From: Gottschalkiaceae bacterium SANA
GTDB lineage: Bacteria; Bacillota; Clostridia; Tissierellales; GPF-1
DNA length: 64,000 nt
Assembly: GCA_036323355.1 (NCBI GenBank)
Contig: AP028876.1
Span: forward strand, 3,348,001 to 3,412,000
Reading direction: 5' to 3'
Position numbers and translations under genes: made by a program. Below, in pieces: positions 6,522 to 19,750 of the stretch. The notes below the pieces were generated by a model, which was not told where the DNA came from, did no database searches, and was given only the letters and a program-made list of their open reading frames with translations. Numbering within the stretch: position 1 is the first letter of the stretch; the number at the start of each line of letters is the position of its first letter.

Positions 6522-6546
6522 AAAGCGCGGGAAGTTCCCGCGCTTT
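6522..6546. terminator. Bidirectional terminator between recX and csoR
   Basis: A 12-bp inverted repeat (AAAGCGCGGGAA / TTCCCGCGCTTT) is flanked by eight A on the left, giving a T-run for the minus-strand csoR transcript. It also follows the recX stop by 10 bases. Confidence 0.8.
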
Positions 6547-6826
6547 ATCTTGCTCTTTTGAACAAGAGCAAAACCTCTTCAATTTTTTCTTCGACCTGAT
6601 CGTTGTTTAAAATAGCATCTTTCACGCAGTGATGAATATGCTGATCTAAAATTTCTAAATCTGCCTTCTTCATTAGGGCTTGGACTGCTAAGATCTGATT
6701 CGAAATATCCACGCAATACCTGCCATCTTCCAACATCCGAATAATTCCATCCAATTGGCCGCGCGCGGTCTTCAACATCTGCATAGCTTTTTTCCGTTCC
6801 GCATTCATTTCAACAATGGGTTCCAT
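6545..6826 (-). CDS. csoR: CsoR-family copper-sensing repressor
   Basis: The 93-residue all-helical protein belongs to the CsoR/RcnR family. It has the Cys38-His63-Cys67 triad (YCVDIS ... DQHIHHC) expected for Cu(I)-binding CsoR; persulfide-sensing CstR members lack the histidine. Cu(I) binding releases DNA and turns on copper export. It is the last gene of a copA-copZ-csoR operon, its ATG overlapping the copZ stop by one base (TAATG). Candidate operators occur upstream of copA and at three other promoters in the window. Confidence 0.93.
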   Translation of the reverse strand: MEPIVEMNAERKKAMQMLKTARGQLDGIIRMLEDGRYCVDISNQILAVQALMKKADLEILDQHIHHCVKDAILNNDQVEEKIEEVLLLFKRAR

Positions 6827-7038
6827 TAGTCCACTTCCACTTCTACCACATCATAGCCTGCTTCGTAAATCGCCTCTTTAATTGCTTCCTCTGACAAATT
6901 TGAACCGGTTACTTCAACAGCTTTCGACTCCAAGCGAATCTGAACGCCCTCTACACCCTCAACAGCGAACAATGCTTGCGATGCCGCCATCACACAATGC
7001 TGGCAGGACATACCTTCTACTTTTAACTTCATCTTCAT
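6826..7038 (-). CDS. copZ: Copper chaperone CopZ (HMA domain protein)
   Basis: The 70-residue protein is a single heavy-metal-associated domain with the Cu(I)-binding motif GMSCQHC (cysteines 12 and 15). It carries Cu(I) in the cytoplasm to CopA and CsoR. It lies between copA (15-base gap, with a GGAGAG site) and csoR, so the three are one operon. The C-terminus is acidic, as often seen in chaperones that dock onto the ATPase. Confidence 0.94.
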   Translation of the reverse strand: MKMKLKVEGMSCQHCVMAASQALFAVEGVEGVQIRLESKAVEVTGSNLSEEAIKEAIYEAGYDVVEVEVD

Positions 7039-7053: not shown

Positions 7054-9423
7054 TTATTTAATTTTCATCGCCTTCAAACGAAGGGAATTGCTTACAACTG
7101 AAACACTTGACAAGGCCATGGCCGCCCCGGCCAACATGGGGTTCAAGAAGCCCAACGCCGCCAGTGGAATGCCCGCCGTATTATAAAAGAATGCCCAGAA
7201 TAAATTCTGGCGAATCACTTTCATGGTGGTATTGCTCAATTTAATGGCTAATGGGATGTTTCTTAAATCGCCACGCATTAAGGTGATGTCCGATGCTTCC
7301 ATGGCGATATCTGTGCCCGTTCCCATGGCAAAACCCAAATCTGCTTGAGCCAAGGCCGGTGCATCATTGATGCCATCCCCAACCATGCCGACGATTTTAC
7401 CCTGTGCCTGATAAGCTTCTACCGCTTGAGCCTTATGGTCTGGCAATACCTCGGCAATCACCTTTGTAATTCCCGCTTGAGCGGCAATGGCCTTGGCTGT
7501 ACGTTCATTGTCACCAGTCAGCATCACGACTTCAATGCCCATCTCTTGCAAGTGACGTACCGCTTCTGATGAGCTTTCCTTCAAGGTGTCCGCAACAGCA
7601 ATCCAGCCTGCAAGCTTTCCTTCCACCGCAAGAACCATGACCGTCTTGCCTTGGCTTTCCAATGCCTCAATATTTCCTGCTTCTTCGGTTAAATCAACCT
7701 TTAATTCCGCCATCCATTTCGGCTTGCCAATTACAATAGCATTTCCCGCTAGGCTTGCTGAAACGCCCTTGCCGGGTACCGCCATAAATTTTTCAACTGG
7801 CAGGATCTCTGCGCCCGCTTCTTTGGCTCGATCGACCAAAGCACGAGCTAAAGGATGCTCCGATGGGTCTTCCACGCTTCCAATCATTTGAAAGAAGGAT
7901 TCTTCTGTGCCTGACTTCACACCAAACTCTGTAACGACTGGCTTGCCATGGGTCAATGTGCCTGTTTTATCGACAATAATCGTCTGAATCTTTTGTGCGC
8001 GTTCCAGGTGCTCCCCACCTCGAATCAAAATGCCATTCTCTGCGCCACGGCCAGTACCCACCATAATGGCAGTCGGTGTCGCAAGCCCCAAAGAACAAGG
8101 ACAGGCGATAACCAATACGGCAACAGCTCGCAAGATTGCCGTTTCCATTCCGTAACCCAATCCAAGATGCGCTATAAATGCGACCAGTGCAATGCCAATA
8201 ACAATCGGTACAAAAACACTTGATACCTGATCCGCTAATCGCTGAACCGGCGCTTTCGTTCCTTGCGCCTCCTCCACCATGCGGATAATTTGTGCCAATG
8301 CTGTTTCTTTTCCAATCCGGGTCGCCTTCATTTCAATGGCTCCGTTTGCATTTATCGTTGCACCAAAGACCAAATCATCCACCGCTTTATCCACCGGCAG
8401 GCTCTCCCCTGTCAGCATGGACTCGTCAATCGCCGTTTGCCCTGATATGACCATCCCGTCAACCGGGATCTTTTCCCCTGGCCGCACCAAGATTTCATCA
8501 TGAATTTCCACTTGATCCAAAGGCAATTCCACCCATACGCCTTCGCGGCGTACCCGAGCCGTTTTGGCCTGCAGCTTCATCAGTTTCTTAATCGCTTCTC
8601 CCGTTCTGCCTTTTGCTCGCTCTTCCAACATCTTCCCCATTAAAATCAGGGTCAAAAGAACCGCGGATGTTTCGAAGTATAAATGACTATGACCAGAAAG
8701 AACCAAGTAGATGCTGTAAAAATAAGCTGCACTGGTTCCCATGGCTACCAATACATCCATGTTGGCTCCACCACCACGCAAACTATGATAGGCACCCTTG
8801 TAAAAAATTAAACCAACCGTAAACTGAACCACTGACGCCAATGCCCATTGTAAATAGCCATTAGAAAGAATCGTCTTCATTCCTGCCATTTCAAAAAACA
8901 TAGCAGAAAGTAAGGGCAAGGATAGAATCGCTGCAAAAATAAATGACCGCCTCAGTTCTTCCTCTCTTGAACGTTTTTCCGTCTCGTCTACTTTTTTCTC
9001 TTGAGTTAAGTCAATCGGTCTATATCCCGTTTTTTCAATGACCTTCATCATTTCAACCTGAGAAATTGACTCCGAATCGAATAGAATGGTTGCTTTATTG
9101 GCTAGCAAGTTCACCGTAGCTCTATAAACCCCGTCCTGCTTGTTCATCGACCGCTCCACTCGAGCCGAACACGCCGCACAGGTCATTCCCTCCACCCCAA
9201 TGGTTACTTGATTAATACTGGGGGTATAACCAGATTTTTGAATCGACGAGAAAAGGTCTGATACGCTCACTTGATCTGGATTATATTGTACAGTTGCAAT
9301 CTCGGACAGTCCATTGACCATAGCGCTAACAACACCCTCTCGTTTCATTAATGCCTTTTCGACCCTTTGCGCACAAGCTGCACAGGTCATATCTTTTACT
9401 CGAATCCGTATGGTTCGTTCCAT
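7054..9423 (-). CDS. copA: Copper-exporting P1B-type ATPase CopA
   Basis: The 789-residue membrane ATPase pumps Cu(I) out of the cell. It has two N-terminal HMA domains (TCAAC at 13-17 and TCAAC at 81-85), a transmembrane CPC metal site ([13 protein letters not shown]), the phosphorylation motif DKTGTLTHG, an HP motif (SEHPLA), and the hinge motif [10 protein letters not shown]. This is the full set for subgroup 1B-1. It is the first gene of the copA-copZ-csoR operon and has a CsoR-like operator directly upstream. Confidence 0.97.
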
Positions 9424-9436
9424 TTTTTCGCCTCCA

Positions 9437-9491
9437 ATCCCCTCCCTAGGGGGGGTAGGTTCAGACTACCATCCTTTTCTTTTTCTGTCAA
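9437..9491 (-). promoter_or_regulatory. copA promoter with CsoR-type operator
   Basis: On the minus strand TTGACA (9486-9491), a 17-base spacer and TAGTCT (9463-9468) form a sigma-A promoter. Directly downstream lies a G/C-rich inverted repeat, TACCCCCCCTAGGGAGGGGAT (9437-9457 region), of the TACCC...GGGTA-like class bound by CsoR proteins. It would place the repressor over the transcription start, just ahead of the copA ribosome binding site. Confidence 0.75.
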
Positions 9492-9585
9492 GCGTTACCC
9501 AACTTTCTTGATTGAACTTCTTACTCCTTCAAAAGATAAAAACGCTTCTCCAGTAAGCACTTTCAGACAAATCGTCAGCAAAATG

Positions 9586-9612
9586 AAAAGGGCTCTCCGA
9601 AGAGAACCCTTT
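9586..9612 (-). terminator. Terminator of the secreted-protein gene
   Basis: The hairpin AGGGTTCTC-TTCG-GAGAGCCCT (one mismatch) with a stable tetraloop is followed on the minus strand by TTTTCATTTT. It lies 25 bases past the stop at 9637. Confidence 0.75.
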
Positions 9613-9636
9613 GTCTGTTAGATCGATGACGATTCT

Positions 9637-11229
9637 TTATTGTATCCTTTTTCTATGCACGACTTTTGTCATACCATCGACTTGCTCCACCACAAAAAGT
9701 TCGATGGTATAAGAAATATTTCCTTCCTCATCAATTTGTAAATGAATTTCAATGGTTGCATCATCCTGACATGGCATTTCATCCACGCTTAGGCTCAATA
9801 AGAGGTCAAAGGGAATACCAAGCTCTTGCCCCTGATAGCTAATCATCAAATTTCTTGCACCCATACCTGCCTTGGCCAGCAAATCACAATATGGGATCTG
9901 AAGACGTAAATCATTGGTTTGCGCTTTCAATGGCGCTCGATAATCAACGATTCCCGTTTCTTCTTCCACTTGCTTTAACAAGCCAAACTTCTTGTCTGTA
10001 AATCGTGCAAATGTTTGGCCGCCAAAGGTTCTTTCCGCAATGACCGGACGCATACCGCCAGATCCTTCGGCTTTTTCATCCCAGTTCATTTGAATGAGTT
10101 CAATAAATATTTGACTAGGTCCTATTAATCTTAATTCATCTCTAATCGGTTCTTGTAAGCCTACAAATCGATTCTGTAAATACAAAGTCGATCCATTAGG
10201 CCCAGGAGAAATCCAACGGGCAGAATTAGTCGTTTCGATTTGATCAACCCGCTTTCCATCATAGCTATATCGCTGAAGGAAAACACGTCTTTGATTCGAC
10301 TCAAGAATAATAACAACAATATGTTCTTCTGTCGTATACATATCACCGATTAGTAGACTTTGAAGGTCCTCTCCATAGCCGTCCACTTTCACTTCAAATC
10401 GAGGGGCTTCCACAGGATTTCTTTCAAGGCTGAATAAATGATCACGAGAAACAAGTGGTTGTGCGATAATTGGTAACGTTTCAATGTACAATTTTCTTTG
10501 ATTCAGTTGAGAGAACAATTGAAATTCATTACTCTTCTCATATCCAGCGGCAATAATTTCCGAACCATCGGCAGAGAAATCAAAAACGACTGGATCGACA
10601 AATCCTAGTGGCATAACACGATCAATTTCTAGGACCGTATCATTAAAAACATCTGGTAAAACAGCAAATCGATATTCTCCTTGTACTTCAAGAAGTCCGT
10701 CTCGTTGACTTTCTCTGTCTTGAGAACTAGTCCTTCCGATCCAAGCAATTTGATTGCCGAACACTTCGAAGTCGTAACAATTCTCTCCAAAATTAGAAAT
10801 CGGAATGCCATTTCCACTCGCATCGATCAAATAGGGTCCCTGTCCCTCTGCTAACAAGAATCCTTCACCCTGGTCAACTTCAAAGTCATAGACGTATCCA
10901 TCCCGATAGAAGATCGACGCTGCCGAAGAAACCAATCCTGTTCTTGATACCGCAATCGTACGGTCTAGCTCAGGAGCCATGCCCCTTGCTTCAGGCAGCG
11001 ATAAAGCTCTCACATTATCTGCCGACATTCTCACATAAACGGCCTCTTCCTTGGGATAATAGGTGATTCCGCTGATCGGATCTCCCTCGGGGTTTTCACA
11101 TGGCCAACTGTAAAAAAGCTCTTGATTTTTTGTCAGTTCAACATTGGGTGGGGGTGTAGCTGTACCAGCAAAAGTCGTTTGCCCTAGAAGTAGCATGATA
11201 AGCGTAAAAATGATAACTTTTCTTTTCAT
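9637..11229 (-). CDS. Secreted protein of unknown function
   Basis: The 530-residue product starts with a clear signal peptide (MKRKVIIFTLIMLLLGQTTFA, cleavage likely after TFA). The rest is soluble, rich in beta-strand-like segments, and resembles a WD/TolB-like propeller in its repeated short aromatic strands, but no repeat could be defined firmly. I do not recognise the family. GGAGG precedes the ATG and a terminator follows, so it is monocistronic. It lies between the copper operon and the HesB selenoprotein with no evident functional tie. Confidence 0.7.
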   Translation of the reverse strand: MKRKVIIFTLIMLLLGQTTFAGTATPPPNVELTKNQELFYSWPCENPEGDPISGITYYPKEEAVYVRMSADNVRALSLPEARGMAPELDRTIAVSRTGLVSSAASIFYRDGYVYDFEVDQGEGFLLAEGQGPYLIDASGNGIPISNFGENCYDFEVFGNQIAWIGRTSSQDRESQRDGLLEVQGEYRFAVLPDVFNDTVLEIDRVMPLGFVDPVVFDFSADGSEIIAAGYEKSNEFQLFSQLNQRKLYIETLPIIAQPLVSRDHLFSLERNPVEAPRFEVKVDGYGEDLQSLLIGDMYTTEEHIVVIILESNQRRVFLQRYSYDGKRVDQIETTNSARWISPGPNGSTLYLQNRFVGLQEPIRDELRLIGPSQIFIELIQMNWDEKAEGSGGMRPVIAERTFGGQTFARFTDKKFGLLKQVEEETGIVDYRAPLKAQTNDLRLQIPYCDLLAKAGMGARNLMISYQGQELGIPFDLLLSLSVDEMPCQDDATIEIHLQIDEEGNISYTIELFVVEQVDGMTKVVHRKRIQ

Positions 11230-11380
11230 CTTTCCCTCCTATTTTATCGTTATGTTTATTCTATCGGAAATTATCAGATAATGACCTTACGTTTTCTTAC
11301 GTTCGGTTTCTAAGGAAAAATCAGTACTGTAAGCAAGTGCAAGCCTCCACCCAACTGCTTGATACATATACTTATCTCGT

Positions 11381-11410
11381 AAAAAAAAAACCCGACCTAG
11401 GTCGGGTTTT
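11381..11410. terminator. Bidirectional terminator after the HesB selenoprotein
   Basis: A perfect 16-base palindrome CCCGACCTAGGTCGGG (11391-11406) is flanked by A10 and T7, so it can terminate on either strand. On the minus strand it directly follows the stop of the selenoprotein gene. Confidence 0.9.
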
Positions 11411-11411
11411 T

Positions 11412-11717
11412 TTAACAGCTGCCGCCACCTTCAAAATTAGAAGGTTCAACAACAAATCCTTTTCGAAGCCAACTATCGGAAAAATCAACGCGAAATTCGC
11501 CAAATTGATCCAATAACTCTTTCGAAACAATAAATTTCACTTCACTGCTATCATCTACATGATCCTCATCCGTTTGCTCATCCAGAGCAATGCCAAAACG
11601 CGGTCCCGATCAGCCAAAGCCTGAGACATATAGGCGCAAAGTTTGATCCAATGTATCCTTTTGCTCCATAATCCTTTTTAATTCTTCCAGAGCTGCTTGG
11701 GTTGCATGTACTTTCAT
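11412..11717 (-). CDS. HesB/IscA-like selenoprotein (in-frame UGA = Sec36)
   Basis: The 101-residue frame has one in-frame TGA (11612-11610) inside VSGFG-U-SGPRFG. The neighbouring paralogue reads VAGFGCSGPSFG, so the UGA replaces a conserved Cys. The rest of the frame is open and homologous over its full length, ends in GGGSC, and starts at an ATG eight bases after GGAGGTGAG. A hairpin that can act as bacterial SECIS lies at 11571-11600. HesB-like selenoproteins are known from anaerobic bacteria. The family is related to iron-sulfur carrier IscA, but the exact role is unknown. Ordinary gene calling would split or miss it. Confidence 0.88.
11571..11600 (-). promoter_or_regulatory. Candidate bacterial SECIS hairpin
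   Basis: Starting nine bases after the UGA, CGTTT pairs with AAACG and GCTC pairs with GAGC around the apical loop TGGAT, with a seven-base bulge on the 5' side. The loop begins 25 bases after the UGA and has G at its second position, which fits the spacing and loop rule for SelB-dependent elements. The folding was done by eye. Confidence 0.65.
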
Positions 11718-11731
11718 CTTCTCACCTCCGT

Positions 11732-11781
11732 ATACCCCTTATAGGTATGCTAATCTTATCAATTCAAACAAACTTTGTCAA
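11732..11781 (-). promoter_or_regulatory. Promoter of the HesB selenoprotein with CsoR-like operator
   Basis: TTGACA (11776-11781), 17 bases, TAAGAT (11753-11758) form a promoter on the minus strand. The inverted repeat ATACCTATAAGGGGTAT (11732-11748) follows immediately, over the likely start of transcription. It resembles the repeats at copA, ccdA and glutaredoxin. Confidence 0.7.
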
Positions 11782-11825
11782 CACTTCTTCTCAATTTTTA
11801 CCCATTCATTCGTTTTTTCAACATA

Positions 11826-11853
11826 TAAAAAAAGGCTCCCAAATTGGGAACCC
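11826..11853 (-). terminator. Terminator of the Cys-type HesB gene
   Basis: The hairpin GGGTTCCCAATTTGGGAGCC (one mismatch) is followed by seven T on the minus strand, eight bases past the stop at 11861. It separates the two HesB-like genes into different transcripts. Confidence 0.85.
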
Positions 11854-11860
11854 TTACTTT

Positions 11861-12187
11861 TTATACTGCGCAGCTGCCTCCACAAGAAGAACATCCACTT
11901 TCCGGTTGAACCGATGGAGTCAAGATAAATCCTTTTCTCGCATCTTCATCAACATACTCAATTGTAAAATCGCCATATTGCTCAAACAATTCAGTTTGCA
12001 TAATGAAATCAATTTCATTTGCATTCGCCTCAAGATCGTCTTCTTTCTTATCATCAAACGCGAGGCCAAAGCTAGGGCCGCTACATCCAAATCCCGCTAC
12101 ATACAAGCGAACTGGCTTATCTGACTCTTTTGCTGCTAAAATCTTTTTCAGCGCGTCAGACGCTGATTGCGTTAAATTTACATTCAT
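11861..12187 (-). CDS. HesB/IscA-like protein, Cys-containing paralogue
   Basis: The 108-residue protein is a close paralogue of the selenoprotein next door. Both share TQ-A--ALK-I, RLYV-GFG, SGP-FG and RKGF. It has Cys at the Sec position (GFGCSGP) and a Cys-rich tail (SGCSSCGGSCAV). It is HesB-like and may bind iron-sulfur clusters or metal. The ATG at 12187 is preceded by GGAGG; a longer frame to 12253 would run through the promoter and was not used. Its promoter (TTGACA at 12248-12253, 17 bases, TACGAT) has no CsoR-like repeat. Confidence 0.88.
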   Translation of the reverse strand: MNVNLTQSASDALKKILAAKESDKPVRLYVAGFGCSGPSFGLAFDDKKEDDLEANANEIDFIMQTELFEQYGDFTIEYVDEDARKGFILTPSVQPESGCSSCGGSCAV

Positions 12188-12224
12188 TTTGGAACCTCCA
12201 TTCCTAGTAATTTGGTCGGGATTA

Positions 12225-12253
12225 ATCGTATCATGATGTTTTACCCATGTCAA
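12225..12253 (-). promoter_or_regulatory. Promoter of the Cys-type HesB gene
   Basis: TTGACA (12248-12253), a 17-base spacer and TACGAT (12225-12230) lie on the minus strand, 38 bases before the start codon. No inverted repeat is seen here, unlike at the selenoprotein promoter. Confidence 0.65.
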
Positions 12254-12271
12254 ACCTTTTTCTCCTATTTG

Positions 12272-12925
12272 TCAATAGAGTTCCACTTCAATTTCATCTA
12301 GAATTTCAAAGACGCGTTCAATCGTTGCTACATTGTCCTCATACTCAGCTGCGCCGGGCACTGCCCCAATGAACTCTCGGTTTGGTCCTACATAAACCTT
12401 GGTCGGTGTCCCCGTCACATTAAATACCCAGGCGGAGTTATTCACATCTAAAACCAAATCATGCTCATAGACAATTCCTTTATCCGCTTCTCCGTCGATG
12501 TATTTTTGCAGACTCTTTGCTGAGTCGCCAATGCTGACAGAAATAATCACTACATCTTCATAGTCCGCATGAATGCGAGCAAGATCCGGCATCTCTTTAA
12601 TACAATATCCACAACTAGTTGCCCAATAATCCAATACGACCATCTTGCCTGCATAATCACTCATTCGAACCTCGTTTCCTTGAGCATCTTCAAATATAAA
12701 ATCATCCAAATACTCAAGAACCAGTTCTTCTGTTTCTTCTGGATCCGCCGTTTCTTGATCCGGATCAACTTCCGGTTCCGCTGGCGGTGTTTCTGTCACT
12801 GTTTCAGTAGCTTCCATAGCCTCTGGTGCAATTGCTTCCGCCTCTTTATCCACCGCTGGACTGCATCCAACAACAACGAGAGCGAGTATTAACAAGCCTC
12901 CAAATAAGAGCTTCTTTTTATTCAT
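12272..12925 (-). CDS. TlpA-like thioredoxin-fold lipoprotein
   Basis: The 217-residue protein has a lipoprotein signal (lipobox LVVVGC, Cys21), a ~45-residue linker rich in Glu, Pro and Thr, and a thioredoxin-like domain with the active site WATSCGYC (Cys105, Cys108) and a cis-Pro loop (TGTPTKV). It would be anchored outside the membrane and act as a thiol-disulfide reductase. It lies 10 bases downstream of ccdA, which supplies electrons to such proteins, so the pair works together. Confidence 0.92.
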   Translation of the reverse strand: MNKKKLLFGGLLILALVVVGCSPAVDKEAEAIAPEAMEATETVTETPPAEPEVDPDQETADPEETEELVLEYLDDFIFEDAQGNEVRMSDYAGKMVVLDYWATSCGYCIKEMPDLARIHADYEDVVIISVSIGDSAKSLQKYIDGEADKGIVYEHDLVLDVNNSAWVFNVTGTPTKVYVGPNREFIGAVPGAAEYEDNVATIERVFEILDEIEVELY

Positions 12926-12935
12926 GATTACCCTC

Positions 12936-13649
12936 CTAATTCATCCATTCCACCAGCCATTGGCTGATGACAACTAATTTCCCTGTCATAATCAAGATTC
13001 CAAAGACCACAAGAACGGCTCCCCCAATCTTTCGAAGAATCAAAACAAAATGCTCAGAGCTTGCAATCCACCGATCTGCAACACCAATGAACCAGGCCGT
13101 TAAGAAAAATGGAACCGCCATACCCAAGGAATACACAAAAAGCAAGAATGCACCCTGAGAAGCCGTTGCTTCTCCGCCAGCAGTTACTAAAATTGCACCC
13201 AGTATCGGTCCAAAGCAAGGGGTCCAGCCCGCAGCAAAGGCCATGCCCATCAAGACTGCCGAAAACCAGCTCTTGATTTTCTTTGGTGCCTTTGCCTTTT
13301 TCTCCCGATTTAGAAAATTGGGACTAATTAAACCCAACATATACAAACCAAATACAATAATTAGTCCGCCACTAATCAGATTGAAAATAAATTGATATCG
13401 ATTCATCAATCGCCCAATCATGGATGCAGACATACCGAGTGTCATAAAGATAAGAGTAAATCCAATGACAAAGCCTAGGGTTCTTATCATAATCTTCTTT
13501 CGAGACCGATTTTCTAAATCCGTGGTTTCTGAAATATACATCAAGTACGCGGGAACCAATGGCAAGAGACAGGGTGTTAAAAAGGAAGCTGCCCCCGCTG
13601 CAAATGCCACCCACAAGGTAATATCTAATGTTGGTCCTAAAATTTTCAT
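12936..13649 (-). CDS. ccdA: Cytochrome c biogenesis protein CcdA (DsbD-type thiol electron carrier)
   Basis: The 237-residue integral membrane protein has about six helices and the two conserved cysteines in FLTPCLLPLVPAYL and GWTPCFGPILG. CcdA passes electrons from cytoplasmic thioredoxin across the membrane to thiol oxidoreductases, here most likely the TlpA-like lipoprotein encoded directly downstream. A GGGAGG site precedes the ATG. Its promoter overlaps a CsoR-like inverted repeat. Confidence 0.93.
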   Translation of the reverse strand: MKILGPTLDITLWVAFAAGAASFLTPCLLPLVPAYLMYISETTDLENRSRKKIMIRTLGFVIGFTLIFMTLGMSASMIGRLMNRYQFIFNLISGGLIIVFGLYMLGLISPNFLNREKKAKAPKKIKSWFSAVLMGMAFAAGWTPCFGPILGAILVTAGGEATASQGAFLLFVYSLGMAVPFFLTAWFIGVADRWIASSEHFVLILRKIGGAVLVVFGILIMTGKLVVISQWLVEWMN

Positions 13650-13669
13650 CGCCTCCCTTTTGTGTCTTT

Positions 13670-13699
13670 ATCATATTATACCCCCAAGGGGTAGTTCAA
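13670..13699 (-). promoter_or_regulatory. ccdA-tlpA promoter with CsoR-like operator
   Basis: TTGAAC (13694-13699), an 18-base spacer and TATGAT (13670-13675) form a likely promoter. The inverted repeat CTACCCCTTGGGGGTAT (13678-13694) fills the spacer between the two boxes, an ideal position for repression. Confidence 0.7.
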
Positions 13700-13736
13700 G
13701 CATTTTTCCAATTTTTTTACAATTTCTTCATATTCC

Positions 13737-14609
13737 TCAATGATGATCCGGCTCCACATGAACCGTAATCCCCAAGACATCTTCATAGGTATGCATGGCG
13801 AGTTCTTCAACCTGATCTGCTATGGTATGACCCGCATCCACACTGATTTCCCCATCGACTTGAATGGTGAGATCTAGATAACAGCCGGCAGAAATACGTC
13901 GAGATTGAATTTGAGTCAATTCAGCTTGAACTCGAGAGCTATTAATCACCCGTCTTAAGATATCCAACTCCTCTTCTGGAAGAGAAGCATCCATCAATTC
14001 ATCGATGCCATGGATCAAAATTTCAATCCCGGTCTTCACAACAATTACTGCAACCACAATGCCAGCAGCCGAATCCATCCACAACAAACCAAATCGGCTC
14101 CCTAAAACCCCAATTAGAGCACCAAGAGATGAAAGTGCATCGCTTCGATGATGCCAAGCATCAGCCTGAAGCGCCGAAGATTTAAGGCGTTTTCCAGCCT
14201 TCATCGTATAGCGATACTGCCACTCTTTCACAGCGATCGATAAAACCGTGATCCAAACAGCCAAGACGCCCGGCGTCTCCAGCTGACCCATCCACAGGCT
14301 CTTCACTGCACCATATCCAATATTTACACCCACAGCAACAACCAAAAGCGACAAAACAAATGCAGCAATGGATTCTGCACGTTCATGACCGTACCGATGT
14401 TTTTCATCGGCCGGCTTTTTTGCGATAAAAAAACCCACCAGCAAACCAATGCTAGAGGCAATATCCGAAAAGGTATGGATACCATCTGCCAAAACAGCCC
14501 TTGAATGTGCAAATATGCCGACAAGAACCTTTGCGACACCCAATATTATATTAATCACAATTGCGATCCATAATACTCTTTTCCCTTCATTATACCGGTT
14601 TGTACTCAT
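13737..14609 (-). CDS. Cation diffusion facilitator (CDF) metal exporter
   Basis: The 290-residue protein has six transmembrane helices and a C-terminal cytoplasmic domain. Metal-site motifs are visible: LADGIHTFSDIASS in helix II and ALQADAWHHRSDALSS in helix V (the HxxxD pattern), and a His-rich end HVEPDHH. CDF proteins exchange Zn2+, Fe2+, Mn2+ or similar for protons. The metal cannot be told from the sequence. The start at 14609 follows AAGGGGGAAAG; an in-frame upstream ATG lacks a site. It stands alone, divergent from the deacetylase. Confidence 0.92.
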   Translation of the reverse strand: MSTNRYNEGKRVLWIAIVINIILGVAKVLVGIFAHSRAVLADGIHTFSDIASSIGLLVGFFIAKKPADEKHRYGHERAESIAAFVLSLLVVAVGVNIGYGAVKSLWMGQLETPGVLAVWITVLSIAVKEWQYRYTMKAGKRLKSSALQADAWHHRSDALSSLGALIGVLGSRFGLLWMDSAAGIVVAVIVVKTGIEILIHGIDELMDASLPEEELDILRRVINSSRVQAELTQIQSRRISAGCYLDLTIQVDGEISVDAGHTIADQVEELAMHTYEDVLGITVHVEPDHH

Positions 14610-14707
14610 TGTTCTTTCCCCCTTATGGTCGAATATACCCTGTTTTCCCATGATCAACAAGGATTATTGAGAGATCGCAATGAATATAAGGTGCATGCAA
14701 TTCTCAA

Positions 14708-14735
14708 TTGCAGGTTATTCTCAATATGGTACAAT
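14708..14735 (+). promoter_or_regulatory. Probable promoter of the polysaccharide deacetylase
   Basis: TTGCAG (14708-14713), a 16-base spacer and TACAAT (14730-14735) lie just before the start at 14754. Two same-orientation ATTCTCAAT words sit on either side of the -35 and look like Fur half-sites, but they do not form an inverted repeat. Confidence 0.45.
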
Positions 14736-14753
14736 AACCAAAGGAGGAAGAAA

Positions 14754-15545
14754 ATGAAACGAAATAAAACACGAAAAATCATAATTGCTCTTCTGCTTGC
14801 CGTTTCTGTTTTCTTCGGCCTAGCAGAACGAAAACCAATAGAGGGTGTTCCTGTTTTACTTTACCACCAACTGGTATCTGATCGCGCTTATGAAGCTATG
14901 GAAAAAAACGATGCGATTATGTCTATTGGGGAATTCAAAAAGCAAATGGACATGATTGATCAAGCTGGATATCAAACCATTACCCTCGAACAACTCCAAA
15001 AACATATTAGCGGAGAAACACCCGCGCCCAAAAATTCCATTGTCATTACCTTTGATGACGGTTATGAAAGCGATTATAAGCTCGCCTATCCCGTGCTAAA
15101 AAAACATGGTTTTCATGCAGAATCTTTTTTAGTTACCAGTTTTTTAAAAGAAGATTCCCAAGATGAAGAACGCTTATCTTCATCGGATACAAGCATGATG
15201 AAAGATGTTTTCACCTTTCATTCCCATAGCCATGCACTCCACACCTTTGCTTACGAGCATGGTGACTTGAGCGAACTTCTGACAGAAAACCTGATGTGGG
15301 ATACAGATCTCTCTTTGCAGTATTTAGAAATCAAAGGAATAAAAAGTGCAAACGATTTTGACGCATACGCATACCCCTACGGAAAGAATGATGAGCGATT
15401 CCAATCAGTCCTTCAAGATTTATCTGTCCGTCTTGGTTTTACAACCAAAAAAGGCTATGTACAAGCAGGATGCAACCCACTTGCTTTGCCACGCTTTGGT
15501 ATTTACCCCGATCGACCCGGTCAATTATATCGAATCTTACACTAA
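14754..15545 (+). CDS. Exported polysaccharide deacetylase (NodB homology)
   Basis: The 263-residue protein has an N-terminal membrane anchor or signal (residues 8-25) and a carbohydrate esterase 4 domain. The metal and base motifs are present: VITFDDGY (residues about 100-107) and HSHSHALH (about 150-157). Such enzymes remove acetyl groups from peptidoglycan or other amino-sugar polymers at the cell surface. AGGAGG precedes the chosen ATG. It is a single gene closed by a terminator and lies upstream of the iron uptake operon. Confidence 0.88.
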   Translation: MKRNKTRKIIIALLLAVSVFFGLAERKPIEGVPVLLYHQLVSDRAYEAMEKNDAIMSIGEFKKQMDMIDQAGYQTITLEQLQKHISGETPAPKNSIVITFDDGYESDYKLAYPVLKKHGFHAESFLVTSFLKEDSQDEERLSSSDTSMMKDVFTFHSHSHALHTFAYEHGDLSELLTENLMWDTDLSLQYLEIKGIKSANDFDAYAYPYGKNDERFQSVLQDLSVRLGFTTKKGYVQAGCNPLALPRFGIYPDRPGQLYRILH

Positions 15546-15581
15546 ATCCTCCATCCCTTTTTTGGGTAGAGGATTTTTTTT
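15545..15581 (+). terminator. Terminator of the deacetylase gene
   Basis: The hairpin AATCCTC-CA-TCCC / GGG-TA-GAGGATT is followed by a run of eight T. Confidence 0.8.
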
Positions 15582-15601
15582 GAAAAAAGCATAAGAAAAA
15601 C

Positions 15602-15636
15602 TTGACATTCTAATTGAGAATGATTATCATTCTTAT
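15602..15636 (+). promoter_or_regulatory. feoAB promoter with Fur box
   Basis: TTGACA (15602-15607), 17 bases, TATCAT (15625-15630) form the promoter. The overlapping TTGAGAATGATTATCATTCTTA is close to the 19-bp Fur consensus, so ferrous iron uptake is probably repressed by Fur-iron. Confidence 0.85.
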
Positions 15637-15703
15637 TGAGAACTTGTTCACAATCTTGTTCACCACCTTGGCTTTCTTAGGAAGGTCATCTTTTTTCAAG
15701 TCC

Positions 15704-15723
15704 ATTGAGAATCATTCTCAAAT
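15704..15723 (+). promoter_or_regulatory. Second Fur-like inverted repeat upstream of feoA
   Basis: A perfect palindrome TTGAGAA-TCA-TTCTCAA (15705-15721) lies 27 bases before the feoA start. It shares the GAGAATCATTCTC core of a Fur 7-1-7 type site and could act as a downstream roadblock. Confidence 0.7.
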
Positions 15724-15747
15724 ATCCCATTGATCTGGAGGCCCTCT

Positions 15748-16044
15748 ATGACGACACATTCTACCATCAATTTACCTGTTCATTTGCCGATCACCTTAAG
15801 TAAACATACTCGTGCTAGCCAAACCGTAAAAAACATATCCCATTCATTAACTAATACACCTTATCAAATCAAAGAAATTCAAACAAACGATCAGGAACTC
15901 AAGGATTTCCTACTCACCCTCGGTTGTTATCGAGGAGAAACCATTACCGTAGTCTCAATTTTATCCGAAAGCTATGTCATCTTAATCAAAGATGCGCGAT
16001 ACAACATTGATCAAGAATTAGCTGAAGTCATTCACCTTGAATAA
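15748..16044 (+). CDS. feoA: FeoA ferrous iron transport protein
   Basis: The 98-residue protein is an SH3-like FeoA: LTLGCYRGETITVVSI and YNIDQELAEVIHL match the family beta-barrel core. About 30 polar residues precede the core, so it is longer than the usual ~75 residues. FeoA is a small cytoplasmic partner of FeoB. CTGGAGG precedes the ATG at 15748. FeoB starts 105 bases later. Confidence 0.88.
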   Translation: MTTHSTINLPVHLPITLSKHTRASQTVKNISHSLTNTPYQIKEIQTNDQELKDFLLTLGCYRGETITVVSILSESYVILIKDARYNIDQELAEVIHLE

Positions 16045-16149
16045 GTGAGACTTTCAACTATTCAATTGCACTCCCTCACCATACATACAGTACATCATCA
16101 ATTATTTACCTCCCATCCAAAGCATTGGGAGAACATAAAGGAGAAAAAT

Positions 16150-18150
16150 ATGAAAATTGCACTTGCAGGAAATCCAAACAGCGGTAAAACAAGCCTATAT
16201 AACGCGCTTACCGGTAAACTTGAGAAAATTGGTAACTGGGCTGGTGTTACCATCGAAAAAAAAGAAAGTCCTCTAAGAAAACAATACAATCCTACACATG
16301 AAGATCTTACCATCGTTGATCTACCTGGTGCTTATTCCCTCTCTCCTTTTACATCCGAAGAATCAATAACCCGGGACTTTATTTTAGAAGAAGCGCCCGA
16401 TATTATTATAAACATTGTCGATGCAACCAACCTAAGCCGTGGTTTATTTTTCACAACACAACTCCTTGAACTGGGAATACCTCTTGTTTTAGCTCTCAAC
16501 AAAACCGACTTACTTGCAAAAAAAGAAAAAGAAATCCGCGTGGCAGAGCTGGCTAAAGCCTTGGCTTGTCCCGTTGTTGAAACGATCGCAATAAAATCAA
16601 AAGATAATGGACTGGCATCATTAATTTCAACCGCAGCTGCGATTAAAGGAAAGACTCCAGCTCCTCCTTTTACAAGCAATCTTACCACGCTCTTACATAA
16701 AGAAGACCGAGAACTTGCAGACAAAAACCGATACGCATTTGTGAATACGCTCGTTTCAAAGGTTGAAATTCAAGAAAAAAAGAATAACCGTCAAACGAAA
16801 CAGGATGCCGCCGATCGATTTATTGCCCATAAATGGTTTGGCCTTCCCATCTTCGCTGTCGTCATGTGGTCTGTCTTTTCCATCTCTCAAACACATTTGG
16901 GCCCCTTGCTAGCAGACCTCCTTGCTGGATTGATTGATTCTCTCTACACTTCGGTCGCTGGAATGCTTGGCGAAGGGGTGTCACCGGTTTTACGCGCCCT
17001 CCTACTGGATGGCATAATCGGTGGTGTTGGTGCAGTTGTCGGATTTCTTCCCCTCATCATGGTCCTCTTTTTCTTACTTGCTCTGCTTGAAGACTGCGGT
17101 TATATGGCAAGAGTCGCCGTTGTTATGGATCGCTTTTTCAAACGGGTCGGCTTATCTGGAAAATCAATTATTCCGATGATTATCGGAACCGGTTGTGCCA
17201 TTCCAGGTATTATGGCAACAAGAACCATTCGCAATACACGCCAAAGAAGAACCACGGCTATGCTGACACCCTTTATGCCTTGTGGAGCAAAACTGCCCGT
17301 GATCGCTTTGTTTGCCGGCATATTCTTTAATGATGCAGCCTGGGTTGGAACCTTGATGTATTTTTTGGGAATTGCCATTATTGTTTTCGGTGCCTTACTC
17401 GTCATGCGAATTACTGGTGAAAAACACACGAAATCCTTTTTTATCGTAGAGTTGCCTGATTATCGATTTCCAAGCATAAAAAGGGCAAGCATTTCTATGC
17501 TATCCAGGGCAAAATCCTTTATCGTAAAAGCGGGTACCATCATCTTGCTCTGCAATGCCGCCATACAAATTATGCAAACCTTCAATTGGAAATTACAGGT
17601 GGTTGCTGAGGGTGCAGCCAACACAAGTATTCTAGCCAGTATCGCCTCTCCCTTTGCCATCTTAATGATCCCCTTGGGTTTCGGTGCATGGCAATTGGCA
17701 GCGGCAGCCATTACTGGATTTATTGCAAAAGAGAACGTAGTCGGAACCCTGGCTGTCGTCTATTCAATTACAAATTTCATCGATCCCGAAGCCAAAGCCC
17801 TGATTTCAGGAGGTGCAAGCGTCGCAAATATCATGGGATTGAGCTCAGCAGCCGCACTGTCCTATCTCGTATTCAACCTCTTTACTCCGCCATGCTTTGC
17901 AGCGATTGGAGCCATGAACGCTGAAATGGAAAGTCGAAAATGGCTTTGGGGAGGAATCGGATTTCAGTTTGGAATGGGTTATGTTGTCGCATTCTTTGTC
18001 TATCAATTGGGAACCCTTTTTACAACAGGTTTATTCGGCACTGGCTTCATCCCAGGATTGATTGGCGTCTCTGCATTTCTCGGCTTTCTCTTGCATCTCG
18101 CACGCAAGGGAAGTATGACAGAAGAAGAGTCACTAAAAACAGCAGCCTAG
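16150..18150 (+). CDS. feoB: FeoB ferrous iron transporter
   Basis: The 666-residue protein has an N-terminal GTPase domain with G1 GNPNSGKT (7-14), G3 DLPG, and G4 NKTD, then a polytopic membrane domain with two gate regions (IGTGCAIPGIM and FMPCGAKLPVI carry the conserved Cys). It imports Fe2+. The reading frame extends upstream of 16150, but AAAGGAG lies only before this ATG, whose product begins directly with the G domain as in the family. It is followed nine bases later by the Cys-rich Feo partner. Confidence 0.96.
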   Translation: MKIALAGNPNSGKTSLYNALTGKLEKIGNWAGVTIEKKESPLRKQYNPTHEDLTIVDLPGAYSLSPFTSEESITRDFILEEAPDIIINIVDATNLSRGLFFTTQLLELGIPLVLALNKTDLLAKKEKEIRVAELAKALACPVVETIAIKSKDNGLASLISTAAAIKGKTPAPPFTSNLTTLLHKEDRELADKNRYAFVNTLVSKVEIQEKKNNRQTKQDAADRFIAHKWFGLPIFAVVMWSVFSISQTHLGPLLADLLAGLIDSLYTSVAGMLGEGVSPVLRALLLDGIIGGVGAVVGFLPLIMVLFFLLALLEDCGYMARVAVVMDRFFKRVGLSGKSIIPMIIGTGCAIPGIMATRTIRNTRQRRTTAMLTPFMPCGAKLPVIALFAGIFFNDAAWVGTLMYFLGIAIIVFGALLVMRITGEKHTKSFFIVELPDYRFPSIKRASISMLSRAKSFIVKAGTIILLCNAAIQIMQTFNWKLQVVAEGAANTSILASIASPFAILMIPLGFGAWQLAAAAITGFIAKENVVGTLAVVYSITNFIDPEAKALISGGASVANIMGLSSAAALSYLVFNLFTPPCFAAIGAMNAEMESRKWLWGGIGFQFGMGYVVAFFVYQLGTLFTTGLFGTGFIPGLIGVSAFLGFLLHLARKGSMTEEESLKTAA

Positions 18151-18159
18151 GAGGATCAA

Positions 18160-18336
18160 ATGACTAATATACTCACGGGAATACTGATTATCACCATTCT
18201 TGGCTTGTCTATTTCAAAGATAATCCATGAAAAGCACAAAGGCTCAGTATGTATCGGTTGTCCCTATAGTGGATCAAAAGACTGCGCTTGCGCATGTAAA
18301 ATCGTAGAATTTTCAGAAGAAAAACATCCTTTGTAA
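18160..18336 (+). CDS. FeoB-associated Cys-rich membrane protein
   Basis: The 58-residue product has one N-terminal transmembrane helix (residues 3-21) and a cytoplasmic Cys cluster CIGCPYSGSKDCACAC. This layout fits the FeoB-associated Cys-rich membrane protein family, which stands in for FeoC in Firmicutes. A GGAGG site overlapping the feoB stop precedes the ATG. It closes the feoA-feoB operon. Confidence 0.85.
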   Translation: MTNILTGILIITILGLSISKIIHEKHKGSVCIGCPYSGSKDCACACKIVEFSEEKHPL

Positions 18337-18400
18337 CCCCCCCTCTTACTAGGATCATCTGAAGTAATACCTGCGTATTACATCACTCGCTTTCTGTATA

Positions 18401-18452
18401 AAAGGCACCCGACAGATTCGATCTCTATCGACTCTGTCAGGTGCCTTTTTTA
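18401..18452. terminator. Terminator of the feo operon, probably bidirectional
   Basis: AAGGCACC-(C)-GACAGA pairs with TCTGTC-(A)-GGTGCCTT around a 16-base loop and is followed by T6 on the plus strand. The flanking TAAAA also gives a weaker T-run on the minus strand, behind glutaredoxin. Between 18453 and 18589 nothing else was recognised. Confidence 0.8.
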
Positions 18453-18589
18453 TTGATCAATTTTTTACCATCATCGCGCAATAAAAAAAGAATTGTGTCC
18501 GTATTTAAATCGAACCCAATCCTCTTTAAAATTTAAATTTTTTTCCGTTCCGTGGATGCCTCCGCTTCACTTACTCTGCGGATGGTGTT

Positions 18590-18820
18590 TTATAGTCCGA
18601 GCAATTGATCAATTCGTGCCTTGTCAAATCCAACGACTTCTTCTTCACCAATCACCAATACAGGTACGCCCATATGGCCTTTTGCCATCAATTCCTTGCG
18701 TGCCTCCATATCTGTTTGCACGTTTTTCTCTTCATATTCTACATTGTTCAATTTTAAATAATCCTTTGCTGCCACACAATGTGGGCATGTGTTTGTTGAA
18801 TAAACGATCACTTTTTCCAT
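18590..18820 (-). CDS. Glutaredoxin-like protein (NrdH/Grx type)
   Basis: The 76-residue protein has a glutaredoxin fold with active site TCPHC (Cys12, Cys15), the cis-Pro motif GVPVLVI and a GFD turn. It would reduce disulfides or mixed thiols in the cytoplasm. The ATG at 18820 follows AAGGAGG. Its promoter contains a CsoR-like inverted repeat, so it may respond to copper or to sulfur/thiol stress together with ccdA-tlpA. Confidence 0.9.
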
Positions 18821-18849
18821 GATAACGCCTCCTTTTTTCTTGTACAAAT

Positions 18850-18878
18850 AATATACCCCGATCGGGTATCTTTGTCAA
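18850..18878 (-). promoter_or_regulatory. Glutaredoxin promoter with CsoR-like operator
   Basis: A near-consensus promoter reads TTGACA (18873-18878), 17 bases, TATATT (18850-18855). The near-palindrome ATACCCGATCGGGGTAT (18853-18869) fills the spacer. The -35 overlaps the stop codon of lplA. Confidence 0.8.
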
Positions 18879-19750
18879 CTAATATTTTGTTCTTTCATCC
18901 AACGGAGAATATCATCCGGCACTGATTTTCCTACCCCGCTTTGATCAAAACAATCAGAAAGCTGCAAAATTTTTCCGCTTTTAACCTTTATTTCATGATT
19001 CTCCCATTTTACGGTAAAGGGTGGAGTCATTCCCCGATTCCATTCCCAGGTTCTGTATTTCTCCTCCGCCAAAGCCTCCGCCTTCTCTATAAGATCACCA
19101 TCCGGCTGCCACATTTTACAGGGTGTCGAATCCATAATTCCTTGAATCCAACGCTCCAGAAAAAGCTTTGTGGTCGTCTCAGGCAGATACTCTGATAAAT
19201 TTACAATAGGCGACGGAACAGAAGGGGAAGCAAAGCTTTCAAATTCCACCCCACTGTCTCTGTCCAGTAATCGATGAATCCGATCCAGATCTGAATCAAA
19301 GAGCAGGGTCCCATGAAACAAGGTCGTATCGCGCCGCATATATTGCGCAGATCCAGATATCTTTTTCCCGTCAATGCGAAAATCATTCCGATCGGAGGTT
19401 TGAATATCCAAACCCATTGCTCGAAGACCCTGTAAAACCGACCCGTAAAGCAAGGGAAAATCAACCGTTTTACTGGGTACATCCTTCAAAATCAAGCTGT
19501 AATTAATATTGCCCTCGTCATGAACCACACAACCCCCACCAGAAATCCGTCTAAGTACAGGAATGGCTTTTGCTTGAGCATAAGCCAAATTTGCTTCAAT
19601 CCAAGGATTTTGGTGCTTGCCTATAATCACAGAGGGTGAATTCCGGTACAGAAACAAGAGACTCTTACAATCGGCTTCAAAAAAGAAAATTTCTTCCAAG
19701 GCCAGATGAAAGGCGGGGTCTCTTCTTTCTGAAACAACAATCTTCATCAT
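18875..19750 (-). CDS. lplA: Lipoate-protein ligase A family protein
   Basis: The 291-residue protein has the LplA/LipB catalytic fold: RRISGGGCVVHDEGN near residue 70 (lipoyl-AMP loop) and the reactive-lysine motif GKKISGSAQ near residue 125. It attaches scavenged lipoate to E2 or GcvH proteins. The start overlaps the end of rsmA by four bases, so it is part of the tatD-rnmV-rsmA transcript. No lipoate-dependent complex is encoded nearby, and octanoyltransferase activity cannot be excluded. Confidence 0.88.
   Translation of the reverse strand: MMKIVVSERRDPAFHLALEEIFFFEADCKSLLFLYRNSPSVIIGKHQNPWIEANLAYAQAKAIPVLRRISGGGCVVHDEGNINYSLILKDVPSKTVDFPLLYGSVLQGLRAMGLDIQTSDRNDFRIDGKKISGSAQYMRRDTTLFHGTLLFDSDLDRIHRLLDRDSGVEFESFASPSVPSPIVNLSEYLPETTTKLFLERWIQGIMDSTPCKMWQPDGDLIEKAEALAEEKYRTWEWNRGMTPPFTVKWENHEIKVKSGKILQLSDCFDQSGVGKSVPDDILRWMKEQNIS

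Follow-up and report, generated by a model that had tools for sequence, protein, structure and literature searches.

A stretch of 64,000 nt from Gottschalkiaceae bacterium SANA (contig AP028876.1, positions 3,348,001 to 3,412,000; the window in the following) carries G/C-rich inverted repeats on its minus strand in front of copA, a HesB-like selenoprotein gene, ccdA and a glutaredoxin gene (grx). The question raised by this arrangement is whether one repressor of the CsoR family joins copper export with thiol-disulfide and selenoprotein functions. The first-pass annotation had proposed exactly this, treating the four repeats as one class of site and naming the CsoR encoded at 6545 as the regulator, with a CstR-type persulfide sensor elsewhere in the genome as its fallback. 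The four repeats are present as it had described them (9437–9457, 11732–11748, 13678–13694 and 18853–18869). We consider it quite probable, though, that two paralogous repressors share these promoters, with CsoR acting on the copA operon and a second, CstR-like protein (group B) acting on a dispersed thiol/selenol redox regulon that reactive sulfur would release.

Two operator classes in the window

The sites of hesB, ccdA and grx have in common the motif ATACCC-N4-GGGGTAT, which we call class B, with the layout TAC-N9-GTA. Operators of the CsoR family with a TAC-X9-GTA core and two short G/C tracts are described as type 2 (PMC3902906); the three sites have this layout, in agreement with their first assignment as CsoR-family operators, and the copA site falls outside it. 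With at least 11 matches among the 13 fixed positions required, exactly three class B sites occur in the window, at the promoters of hesB, ccdA and grx, while the copA site reaches 9/13 at best. All three are predicted operators on the minus strand: ATACCTATAAGGGGTAT (11732..11748) for the HesB/IscA-like selenoprotein gene (11412..11717), CTACCCCTTGGGGGTAT (13678..13694) for ccdA-tlpA-hesB(Cys), and ATACCCGATCGGGGTAT (18853..18869) for grx (18590..18820), whose product belongs to the YruB family (TIGR02196, 94.1 bits, cut-off 88.55). Because they share an operator, the HesB selenoprotein, ccdA-tlpA and the glutaredoxin are probably co-regulated.

The copA operator (9437..9457, minus strand; TACCCCCCCTAGGGAGGGG) belongs to class A, an element of the form CACCCC-N4-GGGGtGGGG that was found, as such or in a near form, at 17 copA promoters of the order (19 starts examined, 2 of them unplaceable), including that of G016, a genome without group B; the class was aligned by eye and is a description rather than an independent test. 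In relatives copA lies near a copper-type (group A) csoR, and in the window the minus-strand row copA-copZ-csoR consists of copA (7054..9423, whose translation was recognized by eye as a copper P-type ATPase), a copZ-like copper chaperone gene (6826..7038, named from sequence and position) and csoR. Judged by its sequence, the copA operator is a distinct element that goes with the copper-type CsoR. The grouping of all four sites in one class therefore stands for three of them and fails for copA.

Promoter boxes in the window were read by eye, and the earlier statement that every repeat overlaps or abuts them is borne out in part. The grx operator covers most of the 17 bases between the boxes of TTGACA-17-TATATT (18878-18850) and reaches into the -10 box, and the ccdA operator overlaps a plausible promoter, TTGAAC-18-TATGAT. 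For hesB and copA the operator lies clear of the -10 box, a short way downstream; the hesB operator directly follows TTGACA-17-TAAGAT (11781-11753), likely at the transcription start. The stop codon of a lipoate-ligase-like gene (18875-19750) falls within the grx -35 box (18873-18878).

How far the class B motif stands out depends on the stringency of the search. In the window, TACCCC-N5-GGGGTA with two mismatches gave 2 matches against 0.87 expected, which is not significant, one of them being the ccdA site. In the genome, ATACCC-N4-GGGGTAT with up to two mismatches gave 31+38 (69) matches against 33+30 (63) for the reversed control, no clear excess, and ATACC-N7-GGTAT with up to one mismatch gave 92+92 against 127+127, no excess. 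Exact matches to ATACCC-N4-GGGGTAT numbered 3 against 0 for the control in this genome and 28+40 against 4+0 over 41 genomes of its order, which we take to be the Tissierellales; they occur in 28 of the 41 genomes and, counted from the listing, amount to 54 distinct sites. With at most one mismatch there are 8 loci in this genome: the three window sites, three sites before ferritin-like, thioredoxin-like and DUF3179 genes, and two probable noise matches, one of them in the gap between a divergent gene pair without a clear link, the other intragenic.

The genes behind the 54 exact sites, named by eye and with Pfam run on one example of most kinds, encode glutaredoxin (25), the selenocysteine-containing HesB (Sec-HesB; 9), a small 4Fe-4S ferredoxin of ~68 amino acids (6), CcdA (3), ferritin-like proteins (3), a Fer4_5 membrane ferredoxin (2) and thioredoxin-like proteins (2); TusA (locus L101, genome G032), a membrane protein and a divergent flavodoxin/SBF-transporter pair occur once each, and one site (L063, genome G031) has no assignable start. 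On these sequence data, the best reading of the regulon is that it comprises Grx, CcdA-TlpA, the HesB selenoprotein and small ferredoxins. The small ferredoxins start with CDxSPFCPxxRxCP or similar and, in and outside the order, have the exact operator ~15-26 bp upstream (L065, L075, L080, L081, L086, L087, L402 and, with an uncertain start codon, L399).

A second CsoR-family protein

The fallback of the first-pass annotation called for a second CsoR-family gene, and one was found: the genome has two, both above the curated cut-off of PF02583 (87.7 and 86.7 bits). One is the csoR of the window (6545..6826, minus strand), last in copA-copZ-csoR, for which the reported copper triad C-H-C is confirmed (RYC...DQHIHHC) and whose closest solved structure by sequence is M. 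tuberculosis CsoR (2hh7). The other maps to 1.964 Mb and is preceded by an rseC-like gene. Among the 41 genomes, 74 of 75 family matches were sorted into 35 rows of group A, 32 rows of group B from 31 genomes, and 7 others, the one omitted being a 38-residue fragment in G003. The Cu(I) triad is present in 34 of the 35 group A rows, including the window protein. Group B lacks a fixed copper ligand: both sensing cysteines are kept in all 32 proteins, and the position of the copper-ligand histidine holds tyrosine in 18 (this genome among them), histidine in 12 and glutamine in 2. In a tree of 80 rows and 92 columns A and B are separate clades, with B forming one clade in 98% of the bootstrap trees and M. 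tuberculosis CsoR joining group A (100/98), where the tree program warns of a long branch.

The class B operator follows group B. A profile built from 14 group B proteins split 199 genomes cleanly, 83 scoring at least 125.8 bits and the rest at most 86.2. The pattern ATACCYNNNNNGGGTAT occurs in 82 of the 83 genomes with group B against 44 of the 116 without it, and at least two such sites in 71/83 against 11/116; the mean number of sites is 2.76 (control 0.78) with group B and 0.48 (control 0.33) without, test values on these related genomes overstating their independence. The contrast is also seen within a family, in which G072 and G145 are without group B although their relatives mostly have it, and keep Sec-HesB with no site. 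Where group B is the sole CsoR-family protein (G004, G007 and G040) the site is present at grx, and where only group A is found (G017, G020, G033 and G035) it is absent from grx.

These comparisons bear directly on the original proposal of a single copper regulon, in which the window CsoR would control copA, HesB, ccdA and grx alike. The proximity of csoR, HesB and grx, within ~13 kb here and in relatives such as G012, G014 and G025, speaks for such a regulon, as does the general resemblance of CsoR-family operators. It is nevertheless very unlikely in our view, since the copA operator differs, the grx motif is missing from genomes with group A only and present in those with group B only, and the pattern stays near the control level where group B is missing, in genomes that in many cases encode another CsoR-family protein. 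We reject it on operator class and phylogenetic profile, and with it the membership of copA: copA has its own conserved operator, and the motif of hesB, ccdA and grx tracks the second CsoR-family protein rather than the copper CsoR. The comparative evidence predicts that the copper CsoR would bind only the copA site.

Conserved promoters and selenoproteins

Loss of the repeats from orthologous promoters had been named beforehand as the observation that would tell against a shared regulon; in genomes with group B they turned out to be conserved at all three class B promoters. A glutaredoxin match was found in 40 of the 41 genomes of the order and its upstream region was read in 39 (G030, at 35% identity, was left out), a genome being counted as positive if any copy had a match of at least 11/13. 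Such a site lies 30-48 bp before the start in 29 of 30 group B genomes and in none of the 9 without group B, where the best scores are 7-9 (Fisher 5e-8, with related genomes treated as independent). Further glutaredoxin copies, often the second of a tandem, score 6-10/13, and the site of G004 and G021 belongs to a copy other than the one most similar to that of the window, which has none. Random 130-base pieces of the grx loci reached 11/13 in 62 of 3000 cases, an overestimate of the background because the loci sampled were enriched for sites. A set of 80 named loci around close glutaredoxins was also read, and in 29 of them a site of at least 11 lies upstream of the matched copy, including those of Tissierella praeacuta, Anaerosalibacter, Sporosalibacterium faouarense and [Clostridium] ultunense. 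The motif score never exceeded 9 at the grx loci of Peptoniphilus, Parvimonas and Finegoldia. Dethiosulfatibacter aminovorans, Acetoanaerobium pronyense and Tissierella pigra also have no site upstream of the matched glutaredoxin; the T. pigra locus has one in another place. The names of these loci indicate the Tissierellales as the order, and the closest relatives that bear a name are the MAGs CSMAG_119 and GPF-1.

For HesB, a match was found in 119 of the 199 genomes and the region upstream of Sec-HesB was read in 55 (left out were G038, with 94 bases upstream, and G063, at a contig end). A site of at least 11 lies directly before HesB (any copy) in 40 of 48 group B genomes and in 1 of 7 without group B (G049). 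In seven members of family f3 the site instead precedes the gene just upstream of Sec-HesB, ccdA in G004, G021, G034, G045, G054 and G059 and a TlpA-like gene in G065, a placement that is consistent with an operon including Sec-HesB. At ccdA, with rows that start after residue 25 or score below 80 bits left out, sites of 11-13/13 were present in 23 of 26 blast rows; in the order all 20 group B genomes read, and G049, have one. The three rows without a site are L238 (from G027, a second locus that is probably truncated upstream), L110 (G017, without group B) and L385, from another order, where sites lie ~200 bases away between divergent grx and ccdA. In the window, ccdA (12936..13649) encodes a CcdA/DsbD-like transmembrane electron carrier and is followed on the minus strand by the gene of a TlpA/ResA-like thiol-disulfide lipoprotein (12272..12925), both named from their best NCBIfam matches, which are under the curated cut-offs. 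The third gene of this presumed operon is a cysteine paralogue of hesB (11861..12187) without a site of its own; the paralogue has none in the three members of the genus.

The selenoprotein itself is a predicted core target. Its gene has UGA at codon 36 (GFGUSGP), and the UGA is at the same place in all 55 genomes counted; selA was found in the genome by a search limited to that gene. With cysteine replacing selenocysteine, the window protein stays below the curated cut-offs of NF038090 (77.3 bits, cut-off 85) and TIGR01911 (57.2 bits, cut-off 66.35), although these HesB profiles are its best matches. Simple folding behind the UGA revealed no selenocysteine insertion sequence (SECIS) hairpin better than shuffles (z -0.9 and -0.4). 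A predicted secreted protein of 530 amino acids is encoded between the selenoprotein gene and copA (9637-11229); in G001 (locus L225) the selenoprotein gene lies ~0.35 kb upstream of copA.

Eleven genomes moreover have glutaredoxin genes in which UGA takes the place of the codon for the first active-site cysteine: G009, G011, G019, G025, G026, G028, G032, G037, G038, G039 and G040 (in this order, loci L074, L223, L068, L102, L064, L103, L069, L128, L207, L216 and L115). These genes usually lie near a cysteine copy that carries the operator, several in tandem with it, and in G037 and G040 the UGA copy itself carries the site (12/13 and 11/13). They are probably selenocysteine glutaredoxins of the same regulon. 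Selenocysteine glutaredoxins with sites or near them make it likely that more than one selenoprotein is under the same control.

Signal, wider occurrence and known systems

In the mechanism that we propose, the copper-type CsoR would control its own copA-copZ-csoR operon through the copA-specific operator. Group B would bind as a tetramer to its ATACCC-N4-GGGGTAT sites and block RNA polymerase there. Its targets would be grx, the HesB selenoprotein and ccdA-tlpA-hesB(Cys), with the thioredoxin-like, ferritin-like and DUF3179 genes as probable additions in this genome. If it behaves like CstR, reactive sulfur in the form of persulfide or polysulfide would join the two conserved cysteines across subunits and free the operators, raising the thiol/selenol reducing capacity of these anaerobic bacteria.

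Several observations weigh against this proposal or parts of it. The pattern still appears in the 44 of 116 genomes without group B, their mean of 0.48 being slightly above the control, and there are single exceptions: G112 has group B and no pattern, G049 has sites and no group B was found, G034 lacks the grx site and G090 the HesB site. Group B stands beside CstR (7mq1) at 95/65, on a long branch and with few columns, and this position is a hint only. The 12 group B proteins with histidine at the copper-ligand position might bind copper. No sqr, rhodanese or persulfide dioxygenase was recognized by eye among the targets. Finally, the repressor is mostly not seen controlling itself, as 29 of the 32 group B loci (~1.5-2 kb on each side, promoters farther away lying outside this view) are without a site of at least 11. 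The three with a site are G000, at rseC, G007 (12/13), before the first gene of a ThiF-like/rseC/group-B row, and the second copy in G028 (11/13); the rseC site of G000 is kept as a degenerate TAC-N9-GTA in G001 and G002 of the same genus. General autoregulation of group B is not supported, with a site at only 3 of 32 loci. The group B gene usually follows a gene of the RseC/MucC family, often behind a ThiF/tcdA-like gene (L002 and further loci); its neighbours are these, glyA or other genes, and no sulfurtransferase was recognized among them.

The scarcity of sites at group B loci removes a link by autoregulation, and it would suit a regulator outside the CsoR family that binds the motif and merely co-occurs with group B. 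We regard such a regulator as very improbable, given that the motif has the published CsoR layout and that, in other Clostridia, its exact form precedes csoR-family genes (L387, L388, L394, L395 and L398) and copA-like genes (L390-L392 and L403). Across the class the exact motif occurs in 95 of 291 genomes, a few of them from the same order. In 30 class loci read it lies before genes for thioredoxin (5), CsoR-family proteins (5), CopA-like proteins (4), glutaredoxin (3), small ferredoxin (2) and CcdA (1), the other 10 having no clear target. The thioredoxin genes preceded by the exact motif, at L397, L400, L408, L409 and L410, suggest that the tie between CsoR-family sites and thiol redox genes extends beyond the order. 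Paired exact operators, 28-37 bp apart from start to start, were seen at L388 and L394 and in the class genomes G248, G301 and G466, and not in the window.

Group B might run the regulon and yet respond to a signal other than persulfide, be it disulfide stress, Cu(I) in the lineages with histidine, or reactive selenium in the form of selenide or perselenide; we consider this possible although clearly the less likely reading. The histidine in 12 of 32 proteins and the lack of recognized sulfide-oxidation genes among the exact-site targets would agree with it, and reactive selenium would suit selenoprotein targets, Sec-HesB being a core one. The core targets remain the same whether tyrosine, histidine or glutamine occupies the ligand position, which makes copper sensing unlikely as the common function, and the one TusA target and the place in the tree point to sulfur. 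Relief of repression by persulfide or polysulfide is inferred from the C31-C60' cross-links that CstR forms with reactive sulfur, in extracts of PMC5480029 and PMC9774590, together with the retention of both cysteines in group B. The earlier fallback, a CstR-type sensor encoded elsewhere, fits in that the motif follows group B, which the tree weakly places next to CstR.

The conserved regulon would place the HesB selenoprotein in a setting that experiments can probe, that of sulfane sulfur or thiol stress, and supplies a promoter suited to reporter assays. More tentatively, CsoR-family repressors may be general thiol/selenol redox regulators in Clostridia, with one CstR-like clade controlling selenoproteins (HesB and the selenocysteine glutaredoxins, of which two have the site), CcdA-TlpA and small ferredoxins and answering reactive sulfur or selenium. 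If this is true, a persulfide-type sensor would be linked to selenoprotein expression. In a literature search that left most subscription papers and preprints outside, none of the matches listed ties a CsoR-family regulator to a HesB selenoprotein, glutaredoxin or CcdA, and there is no precedent among them for such a link.

Among known systems, the HesB-like selenoprotein family (TIGR01911, NF038090) has the UxGP motif of selenoproteome surveys, as does the window protein, which lies below both cut-offs; the extracts of these surveys (PMC1794560, PMC13188914) give no regulator for the family. CstR is a CsoR-like sulfurtransferase repressor of Staphylococcus aureus and others (structures 7MQ1-7MQ3, of which 7MQ2 is identified as CstR in the extract of PMC9774590). 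In S. aureus its direct control is reported to be confined to one operon, cst (PMC5480029), whereas an 11-gene sulfur cluster including its own gene is controlled by YrkD of Bacillus licheniformis (PMC9918477); as far as these extracts go, the CstR-type regulons described are sulfide-oxidation operons. Group B resembles CstR and YrkD in belonging to the CsoR family, with two cysteines at the same places and no requirement for the copper-ligand histidine, and, as with S. aureus CstR, a paralogous copper CsoR is encoded alongside it. It differs in its dispersed targets, thiol/selenol carriers and ferredoxins, and in the position of its gene beside rseC, and as no sulfide-oxidation operon was recognized next to it we class the regulon as CstR-like rather than as that of a CstR proper. 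TTHA1953 of Thermus thermophilus is likewise a cysteine-modulated CsoR-family protein with dispersed targets far from its own gene, but its operator, TACNNTACNNNNGTANNGTA, has no G/C tract and its sulfur targets are Sox genes (extract of PMC10318464). The class B layout TAC-N9-GTA is also that of the copper CsoR of streptomycetes and other bacteria, for example ATATACCCCTNAGGGGTATAT in streptomycetes (PMC3902906), whereas in the order studied here it goes with the paralogue without a fixed copper ligand, and the copper CsoR goes with another operator at copA.

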